Under the pieces are notes generated by a model. The model worked only from the letters and a program-made list of their open reading frames with translations. It was not told the DNA's origin and searched no databases. From Crossiella cryophila (lineage in GTDB: Bacteria; Actinomycetota; Actinomycetes; Mycobacteriales; Pseudonocardiaceae): a stretch of 64,000 nucleotides of DNA. Below, piece after piece: positions 48,835 through 50,711 of this stretch. Made by a program: the position numbers and the translations under genes. The stretch spans positions 7,651,501 through 7,715,500 of the forward strand of contig NZ_JACHMH010000001.1 in the NCBI RefSeq assembly GCF_014204915.1. The letters run 5' to 3'. Position 1 is the first letter of the stretch. Each line of letters opens with the position of its first letter.

Positions 48835-48856
48835 CACCCCAACCCACCCACCCCGC

Positions 48857-48944
48857 GTGTTGGCCGTTGTCGTACGGAGTGTTGGCCGTTCTTGTACGCC
48901 GTGTTGGCCGTTGTGGGACGGGTCGTTGGCCGTTGTTGTACGGC
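48857..48944. repeat. Four tandem 22-bp units, left array
   Basis: Four copies of a 22-bp unit with core TTGGCCGTTNTNGTACG start at 48857, 48879, 48901 and 48923. They are in perfect register with small substitutions. A companion array of the same unit in inverted orientation lies at 49649-49714, on the other side of the hairpin region. Confidence 0.85.
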
Positions 48945-49011
48945 CGCAGGCCGCAGGCCGCAGGCCGGGGGTTGGGGTTTGGGGTTGGGGGTAAAACCCA
49001 CGACGAGGGTT

Positions 49012-49161
49012 CTCGCGTGTTCTCCGTACGGCCTGGAGCTTGCTGACCGCGCCCCGAGGAGCGGCCCCTGCAACCTGCCGCCGCCCTAGCCTCCCAAGGT
49101 GACGGGGGCCGCTCCTCGGGGTGTGGTTGGCTTGCGGAAGGCCGTGCGGAGAACACGCGAG
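49012..49161. repeat. Long interrupted inverted repeat (hairpin 1)
   Basis: Two nested pairs of arms form one hairpin. The outer arms at 49012-49033 (begins CTCGCGTGTTCTCC) and 49140-49161 match with one mismatch over 22 bp. The inner arms at 49052-49068 (CCCCGAGGAGCGGCCCC) and 49105-49121 match perfectly over 17 bp. The 25-bp loop element at 49071-49095 is repeated in inverted orientation at 49496-49520. The flanks are G-rich (GGGGTTTGGGGTTGGGGG at 48975-48992), with three copies of CCGCAGG at 48944-48964. Confidence 0.85.
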
Positions 49162-49255
49162 CCCTCGGAGCCACGCTGGGTCTTGAGTCGGCAACCCAAA
49201 CCCCGCCCCGCAACCTGCTTGCCCGGCTCTTGACTTGCCCTCCCCCCTCCGGTGG

Positions 49256-49370
49256 TCTGCCCGGCCGGCGAGGCCATCTTTTTCGCTCTTGATCTTTGCG
49301 TTGTTGGCCTCTGTTGCTGAGGTACCCGAACGACAGTCAAGATCAAGATCGTCCTCGCCGGACGGGCAGA
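49256..49370. repeat. Central inverted repeat (hairpin 2)
   Basis: Arms at 49256-49273 (TCTGCCCGGCCGGCGAGG) and 49353-49370 match over 18 bp with one mismatch. Weaker similarity continues on both sides, with TCTTGATCTT-type stretches inside and TTGACTT/AAGTCAA segments outside. It lies in the middle of the composite element. The composition here is less GC-rich than around it. Confidence 0.7.
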
Positions 49371-49428
49371 AATCAAAGGATGGGGGGGAAAGTCAAAGAC
49401 AAGAGCAAAGATGAAGAGCAGTGCTCGT

Positions 49429-49580
49429 GCGGTTCCCCCATCCCCGTCAGCCTTCCGATACCAAACCACATCCCGGGCACGCAGACCGTGCGGTTGGGAG
49501 GCTAGGGCGGCGGCAGGTTGCGGTCTGCGCACCCGGGATGTGGTGTGTCCTCTCCAGGCTGACGGGGATGGGGGAACCGC
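49429..49580. repeat. Long interrupted inverted repeat (hairpin 3)
   Basis: Outer arms at 49429-49453 and 49556-49580 match perfectly over 25 bp (begins GCGGTTCCCCCATCC). Inner arms at 49465-49488 and 49521-49544 match over 24 bp with two mismatches (begins ACCACATCCCGGG). The loop contains, at 49496-49520, the exact reverse complement of the 25-bp loop element of hairpin 1. The stem sequences of the two hairpins differ, so only the loop core is shared. Confidence 0.88.
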
Positions 49581-49648
49581 TCGGGGAGTGTTGAAAAGCC
49601 ACCCCGTCTGCTTGTGTCCGGGCTTCGCCCGCACGCAGTCGCCCAAGG

Positions 49649-49714
49649 CGTACAACAACGGCCAACGTGGTGTACGACAACGGCCAACACTCCGTACAAG
49701 AACGGCCAACACGC
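49649..49714. repeat. Three tandem 22-bp units, right array (inverted)
   Basis: Three copies of the 22-bp unit of the left array, in reverse orientation (core CGTACAANAACGGCCAA), start at 49649, 49671 and 49693. The two arrays bound the hairpin region symmetrically. The right one ends 14 bp before the convergent-side gene of unknown function. Confidence 0.85.
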
Positions 49715-49727
49715 CGGTAGGGGTTGG

Positions 49728-50711
49728 TCAGTCCTTCATCTTCAGGCCGAGGGACTTGCGGATGGTGCGGTAGTCCAGTTTGTCGTAGCGGTAGCCGATG
49801 TAGCTCCACGGCAGCCCGTCGGTGACGCTGCGCGCGCTCACCCTGGACAGGTGGTCGCGGGCGCGTTCGCGTTCCCCTGCCAGGTAAAGCCCCACGCCGA
49901 GCAGGTGGTGTGCCTCGATGTTGCGGTGGTGGGGGCGCAGGCCGGCCAGCCAGTTGTCGCTGATCCGCACCAGTTGTGCGCTGATGTGCGGGCGGCCGAA
50001 GTAGTCCAGCGGTTCGGCGTCGTTGCCCATCATGACCTCCAGGTGCGCGGCCACGGTCAGCGCGCTCAGTGGTTCCCCCGGCGGGGCGGATTGGGCGACC
50101 TCGTTGGTGAACTCGAGCACCTCGCGGTCGCTGCCCTGCCACTTCTCGCACAGCACCTGGACCCGGGAGTAGTGCGCGCCGTAGTGGAACGGGTCTCGGT
50201 CGGTCAGCTCCTGCCAGACCTCGTCCATCTCGTCCCGGCTGACCTGCAGACCCAGTCCGCGCCACTGCAGCTTGTCCCATGGCACCGGGTCGGCCGGGCG
50301 CAGTTCGGCGGCGTGCATCAGCGGGTCGTAGGCGCCGCCGAGGATGAACCAGAACTGCTCGAACTGCTCCCGGCTGACCTGGTCGGCGGTGGCCCCGGTG
50401 CGCACCTTCCAGGCGTGCTGGATCCGGGTGGCGCCCAGCAGTAGCTGCAGGTCGGCGTCGTCGGGGTTGGCGGCGGCGATCTTGCCCAGCTCGTCGACGT
50501 TGCGGACCAGGATCTTGCTGATCTTGCCGATCCGGTCGGCGCGCAGCTCGTTGTCGCCCTGGGTGGCCGCGGCCAGCTTCCAGGCGACCTCCAGGTCACC
50601 CTTGTACAGGTCGTGCTCGGCGGCCTTGAAGTCCGGGTCGGGCTGGCCCGCGTCGGTGCTGATGCCGATGTCGCGCAGGACACGCATGATCATCATGAAT
50701 TTGCTGGGCAC
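49728..50711 (-). CDS. Hypothetical TPR-like cytoplasmic protein
   Basis: A 327-residue soluble protein, all-helical by eye. Segments such as KGDLEVAWKLAAATQGDNELRAD, NPDDADLQLLLGATRI, DPFHYGAHYSRVQVLCEKWQG and AHHLLGVGLYLAGERERARDHL fit a DUF4034-like or TPR-like arrangement. I do not recognise a named family with certainty. It is the downstream partner of the M16-like gene (28-bp gap), so it may act with it. Confidence 0.7.
   Translation of the reverse strand: MPSKFMMIMRVLRDIGISTDAGQPDPDFKAAEHDLYKGDLEVAWKLAAATQGDNELRADRIGKISKILVRNVDELGKIAAANPDDADLQLLLGATRIQHAWKVRTGATADQVSREQFEQFWFILGGAYDPLMHAAELRPADPVPWDKLQWRGLGLQVSRDEMDEVWQELTDRDPFHYGAHYSRVQVLCEKWQGSDREVLEFTNEVAQSAPPGEPLSALTVAAHLEVMMGNDAEPLDYFGRPHISAQLVRISDNWLAGLRPHHRNIEAHHLLGVGLYLAGERERARDHLSRVSARSVTDGLPWSYIGYRYDKLDYRTIRKSLGLKMKD

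Follow-up and report, generated by a model that had tools for sequence, protein, structure and literature searches.

What kind of element is the palindromic stretch of roughly 860 bp at positions 48857–49714 of a 64,000-nucleotide piece of the Crossiella cryophila chromosome (contig NZ_JACHMH010000001.1, positions 7,651,501–7,715,500; the whole piece is called the window in the following)? A sequence-only reading had described it as inverted arrays of 22-bp units around three hairpins and had offered a mobile non-autonomous element, a recombination or replication site, and a structured RNA as explanations. The composite consists of two layers, namely a system of 22-bp arrays and, between the arrays, two hairpin units in inverted orientation. 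Among the options offered, the evidence best supports a mobile non-autonomous element, which is also the most likely one; it is favoured by the many copies, by their lineage-specific presence at orthologous sites and by the lack of a gene within the element. As regards the more specific proposal that the units form a non-autonomous, dispersed mobile element which a HUH enzyme recognises in the form of folded single-stranded DNA, with RepSA as the leading candidate, we consider the case evenly balanced.

The hairpin unit occurs in many copies

The genome of the host (G000; a single contig of 10.06 Mb) was compared with four further Crossiella genomes (G001–G004), among which G001 represents the closest species. 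A BLAST search of G000 with an 873-bp query yielded at least 36 copies covering most of the core, the window copy included, with identities to the latter of 81–93%, plus at least four partial copies. By means of the covariance model R1, at least 101 distinct units were detected, which make up at least 37 pairs and at least 27 solitary units (solos). These copy numbers are lower bounds, since the best 40 of 258 candidates were scored in the BLAST search and the best 150 of 23745 with R1; the 101 places result from 149 R1 matches, the rest of which are the same hairpins on the opposite strand. The genome-wide search suggested by the sequence-only reading thus shows that the stretch is neither single-copy nor without relatives. 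It is also unlikely that the arms in the window are an assembly artefact, because the host sequence consists of a single contig and other Crossiella assemblies show the layout too.

The alignment of the copies, the match between unit A and the reversed unit B, and the solos show that the three hairpins of the window belong to two units, which are arranged tail to tail. The basic unit of about 300–340 bp comprises a leader, a hairpin of 130–145 nt, a linker of about 50–100 nt and a conserved foot, CTGCCCGNCCGGCGAGG. Hairpins 1 and 3 represent one unit each, and hairpin 2 consists of both feet pairing face to face. All 37 pairs of G000 have this orientation (+-), and 244–283 bp separate their hairpins. 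Twenty of the 27 solos were read together and four earlier. All 20 belong to class II (see below) and contain [CT]TTGA[CT] within about 10 nt past the foot; the version CTTGATC presumably resembles the nick site of pC194-family origins.

According to a motif scan, in which 4 of 123 matches look like chance, at least four distinct stem sequences share this plan: classes I and II in G000 and G001, class III in G002 and G004, and class IV in Actinosynnema. The motif GCCTGG, which is located on the 5' side of the hairpin at an internal loop, is invariant in all 33 aligned units. For several other genera, the internal loop is predicted to form two mini-hairpins, giving a four-way junction.

Pairing was assessed in two hand-picked alignments, A1 (33 units) and A2 (36 family-wide units). 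In A1, 35 of the 45 pairs changed on both sides, the outer stem is paired to 99.8%, and 285 compensatory cells were counted, compared to 87.5 ± 7.6 in shuffles and 17–59 with slid partners. One of the five A1 measures, the number of further pair types, showed no excess (64 versus 63.0 in shuffles). In A2, 29 of the 36 predicted pairs changed on both sides.

Compensatory change of this strength speaks for a structured RNA family, whose transcribed copies would be either RNA genes paralogous to one another or elements that stabilise or terminate the 3' end of upstream genes. The location of the copies, mostly 3' of a gene, does so as well: 97 core places from four species were classified with our own caller of open reading frames as 44 convergent, 39 tandem, 7 divergent and 7 edge cases. 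However, the loops are freely shuffled, the pairs place one unit on both strands, and sites differ among close species. Furthermore, none of the curated Rfam models, which include self-splicing introns, matched the window at gathering score. We consider an RNA family unlikely.

The loops are drawn from a small, shuffled set of cassettes. Perfectly complementary loops are present in one of the 36 full copies, which is the window copy, and loops match within a copy no better (0.716) than between copies (0.712). Kissing of the loops as a conserved feature was therefore rejected. The interpretation given in the sequence-only reading is thus partly supported, with respect to a mobile element but not with respect to conserved kissing.

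In the tandem contexts of G000, the strand of the unit is unrelated to that of the neighbouring gene (7 of 16 are the same). The contexts vary among copies, and a tie to the neighbouring biosynthetic operon was rejected for this reason; as other copies adjoin other genes, the biosynthetic genes beside the window copy look incidental.

Pairs are lineage-specific and homogeneous within species

The comparison of insertion sites in relatives, which had also been suggested, revealed lineage-specific presence: the pair is missing in G001 at all ten G000 sites for which both flanks were located. In the main set of 16 sites, both flanks were found in G001 for nine, and one or none for seven. The flanks of such sites are about 88–97% identical, and the gap between them is mostly filled by other 22-mer arrays. 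At nine other G000 sites, at least part of the core is located at the same place in G001. The intergenic turnover at the G001 sites is very fast; at L197–L205, the gene flanks are kept and the arrays plus core are swapped for other arrays, for example 22-mers like GAGTTGGCCCAACTGGTACGCC.

A miniature inverted-repeat transposable element (MITE) moved by an ordinary transposase that is encoded elsewhere in the genome would agree with the many copies, their intergenic location and their lineage-specific presence. This explanation appears quite unlikely: terminal inverted repeats with a target duplication could be defined neither in the copy alignment nor in the site comparison, where intergenic turnover hides the junctions, and solos coexist with pairs.

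Three separate groups, namely G000, G001, and G002 plus G004, appear in a tree built from 81 class I regions. Orthologs from the two species pairs are 0.72–0.78 identical, compared to a mean of 0.901 among the G000 copies. Within the closer species pairs, orthologous sites show flank identities of 96.0% (15 pairs) and 94.9% (6 pairs), but identities of 0.885 and 0.872 in the hairpin region. The best paralog from the same genome (0.907–0.983) exceeds the ortholog in 20 of the 21 pairs, although in 5 of the 21 no copy in the other species is closer than the ortholog. As paralogs are closer than orthologs, the copies have been homogenised within species, or sites have been refilled.

Old immobile repeats that are kept alike through gene conversion alone, with the species differences being losses, would account for the paralogs being closer than the orthologs and for six sites that are common to the species pairs G000/G001 and G002/G004 (one by a single flank only). 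Yet the absence of the pair from the closest species at every readable site would require many losses, and G000 contains more copies than were observed in G001. We give this explanation little credence.

Single units outside Crossiella are associated with RepSA elements

R1 matched 37 of 249 genomes of the family and 15 of the 46 genera tallied. In some of these genomes, at least 9 of the 12 scored candidates were matches; in others, one or two. The model R2 at E ≤ 1e-4 matched none of 395 other genomes from the phylum (396 drawn), in a search with stricter filters and eight candidates scored per genome, in which 375 genomes are unlisted and weak relatives may be lost. A general-hairpin artefact of the covariance model was rejected on this basis. 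In the majority of the 26 loci examined, a foot is present past the hairpin. A scan with the foot pattern gave 36 stretches, ten in Crossiella sp. S99.2, 16 in Actinosynnema pretiosum and ten scattered singles elsewhere; the A. pretiosum stretches hold 17 exact foot matches, one inverted pair included. The unit of L226 had no match in plasmid and phage collections. A description of the element was not found in open-licence PMC papers, a search outside of which most subscription journals lie, and the repeat is apparently undescribed so far.

The protein RepSA initiates the rolling-circle replication of pSAM2-type integrative conjugative elements (AICEs). A passage of PMC3218068 describes it as an initiator that nicks the double-strand origin. 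Within 1.5 kb, no gene common to the low-copy units was found at 26 loci; the link to AICEs emerged only at the 20-kb scale. Eighteen low-copy places were fetched, leaving out those of G075, G150, G154, G155, G161, G165, G178, G247 and G253, as well as the second low-copy places of G114, G119 and G203. At nine of the 18, rep or tra lies within the 20-kb region. RepSA lies within about 13 kb at ten of them, the tenth being G227 with RepSA 13 kb off; if roughly 1.5% of places are assumed to lie this close by chance, the probability of ten is about 2e-14. The RepSA matches at these ten places score 461–521 bits and fall into the upper of two score groups. Single units sit at a recurrent position and strand on the RepSA AICEs of other genera: rep/tra and the unit share one strand in all nine low-copy places checked, the AICEs being partly interrelated. 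For example, the gene order at L253 is integrase, RepSA (PF20199, E 5.9e-150), FtsK-type Tra, GntR-UTRA, DUF218 and the unit. L254 and L261 are compact versions of such an AICE, whose ends lie near tRNA-Lys and tRNA-Arg. The option of a replication site, raised in the sequence-only reading, gains indirect support from this link.

A conserved stretch of about 52 bp lies 3' of some low-copy units (L231, L232, L233, L241; positions 2824–2875 of L231 and 1880–1932 of L232 are 92% identical). Translations of this stretch include MKKRNS.

The only transposase type searched was Y1 (PF01797), to which the RAYTs (transposases associated with repetitive extragenic palindromic sequences, REPs) belong. 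It was found in two of the five Crossiella genomes and is absent from G002, G003 and G004, for which reason a RAYT/Y1 transposase was rejected as the general mover. The match in G000 (G000:C1:6800204-6800452) is disrupted by an internal TGA; G001 contains a match (G001:C2:48901-49143) in an open frame of 301 aa, plus two pieces.

Distribution relative to the replication fork

In G000, dimers are absent from the regions up to 0.5 Mb from dnaA and up to 1.1 Mb from the opposite point, limits that were chosen post hoc; the second of these regions contains 4 of the 27 solos. The direction of the fork is followed by 44 of 64 class II units (p = 0.0037, with the three unread solos counted as class II), by 26 of 37 if dimers alone are considered (p = 0.02), and by 18 of 27 solos. 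In G002, 20 of 24 class I units point against the fork, a count that depends on that of G000 due to shared sites.

Chromosome-organising or fork-related sites that match a DNA-binding protein of each species would fit the dimer-free zones, the fork bias and the homogeneity within species, but are very improbable in view of the solos inside one of these zones, of the differences between the two closest species at most tested sites, and of the location on AICEs, which they leave unexplained.

Proposed mechanism

In the mobile element proposed here, the single-stranded hairpin plus foot would be read by an enzyme of the rolling-circle type (HUH), for which the RepSA of AICEs is the leading candidate. 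On AICEs, the unit may serve replication, for example as a single-strand origin (sso) or as an aid to the double-strand origin, and AICEs would be the vehicle of the unit in other genera. On Crossiella chromosomes, it may have turned into a repeat that is copied through single-stranded DNA at replication forks; the element is perhaps derived from an AICE origin. A more elaborate scenario is put forward tentatively, as we find it rather doubtful: a hairpin-plus-foot part of a RepSA-AICE origin escaped, was paired tail to tail and copied at the fork. The lifestyle of REPINs (inverted REP doublets) would thereby have been reinvented with the initiator replacing the RAYT, and continuing conversion or refilling would keep the copies uniform in each species.

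Several observations weigh against the proposal. A profile search detected no RepSA in G000. The AICE genes searched for were found at none of 96 chromosomal core loci with flanks of about 3 kb, and in none of eight 20-kb regions from high-copy hosts. RepSA is present in five of eight genomes chosen as unit-free, and in genomes that do contain units, several RepSA loci lack one in their vicinity. The fork bias is moderate, and the six sites found genus-wide argue that many copies are old. No clean target duplication was seen at the orthologous sites compared, because whole intergenic regions were turned over, hiding the junctions. Moreover, template switching in palindromes can give matching stem changes without selection, so that compensatory change alone is no proof of selection. 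As the enzyme moving the unit, RepSA is an unproven candidate: it is missing from the host genome, whose one Y1 transposase is disrupted.

Relation to known systems

Function in the form of a folded single strand, as proposed here for the unit, is also known for the attC sites of integrons. REPINs are characterised in a passage of PMC3116915 as inverted doublets that are intergenic and multi-copy, are predicted to adopt a fold as single-stranded DNA and coexist with singlets. The Crossiella repeat resembles REPINs, bacterial interspersed mosaic elements (BIMEs) and their RAYTs in its many intergenic inverted doublets of a hairpin unit next to solos. It differs in size, as REPs are short tagged palindromes of 20–40 bp according to part of PMC3733652 and the hairpin of the Crossiella unit alone is far longer; in the lack of an intact RAYT (Y1) in most of the genomes; and in the link of this type of unit to RepSA AICEs. 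The low-copy units share with an sso such as sso1, a strand-specific site on the integrative conjugative element ICEBs1 which replicates by rolling circle (PMC4595007, in part), their location on rolling-circle elements and a fixed strand relative to rep/tra. This comparison is one of location and strand, and the sso activity of the unit is putative; in contrast to an sso, the units are dispersed on chromosomes in many copies, and the chromosomal pairs are not on a rolling-circle element. Similarly, the low-copy units ride pSAM2-type elements with RepSA, FtsK-type Tra, integrase and tRNA neighbours, whereas the chromosomal pairs lack such genes. Hairpins and a replication-strand bias, as described for IS200/IS605-type and other elements of single-stranded DNA in a passage of PMC6006769, are found in the Crossiella repeat too, but most host genomes tested contain no Y1 transposase, and the hairpins are internal and paired.

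The element may represent a novel type of miniature mobile DNA acting via single-stranded DNA. If so, bacterial mobile DNA would gain a class of very large hairpin elements with two storeys that extends across the family, and chromosomal repeats would become linked to conjugative elements. The class would provide a natural test system for the spread and uniformity of repeats through single-stranded DNA, and would account for many intergenic stretches that carry no annotation in antibiotic-producing genera, Crossiella and Actinosynnema among them.

Layout of the window copy and the 22-bp arrays

The features of the window copy are compiled in the table. The oppositely pointing arrays of four and three 22-bp units were found where the sequence-only reading had placed them, with seven matches to GTTGGCCGTTNTNGTACG in the window at up to two mismatches (48859–48942 on the + strand, 49649–49710 on the - strand) compared to 0.01 expected from shuffles. 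The three large hairpins exist as well, with inverted arms at 49012–49076/49097–49161, 49256–49273/49353–49370 and 49419–49488/49521–49590; the stems of hairpins 1 and 3 are longer than the 17–25 bp assumed. Their predicted folding energies are -139.5 kcal/mol (hairpin 1) and -123.2 kcal/mol (hairpin 3). The stems of these two hairpins are different, as had been noted, yet the hairpins are homologous: hairpin 1 and the reverse complement of hairpin 3 match at about 73% across about 165 bp, and the aligned identity of the whole unit A and the reversed unit B is 60% (175/293). The loop element common to both, in opposite orientation, is 100% complementary in the window copy and measures 28 bp instead of 25 bp.

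Features of the window copy (window positions)
Feature	Position	Strand	Basis
Left 22-bp array, four units	48856..48942	+	repeat search and motif count
Right 22-bp array, three units, opposite orientation	49647..49712	-	repeat search and motif count
Unit A (class I), leader to CTTGATC past foot	48975..49312	+	copy alignment, unit comparison; ends approximate
Unit A hairpin (G000 7700516-7700657)	49016..49157	+	covariance model R1
Unit A loop cassette	49070..49097	+	repeat search, unit and loop comparison
Unit A foot motif CTGCCCGGCCGGCGAGG	49257..49273	+	foot scan
CTCTTGATC past unit A foot	49286..49294	+	position read; significance putative
Unit B foot motif CTGCCCGTCCGGCGAGG	49353..49369	-	foot scan
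Unit B (class II) hairpin (G000 7700935-7701074)	49435..49574	-	covariance model R1
Unit B loop cassette	49494..49521	-	repeat search, unit and loop comparison
Unit B with leader mini-hairpin CGGGCTTCGCCCG at 49619-49631	49340..49632	-	unit comparison, solos; ends approximate

The arrays form a layer of their own, as observed in the window and at L034, L035, L045, L046, L052 and L053. In G003, 22-bp arrays stand alone, often just past stop codons, and so do variants of 21–22 bp in other genera of the family. The arrays of G000 alternate in the order R-F-core-R-F, and a mini-hairpin, GAGGGTTTCAACCCTC, is located in some of the R-F gaps. In the window, a short tandem GGCCGCA repeat (48942–48969) follows right after the left array. 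The element is flanked by convergent genes, which code for a LysE-type translocator (PF01810; 48214–48834) and for a protein of 327 aa without a Pfam match (49728–50711).
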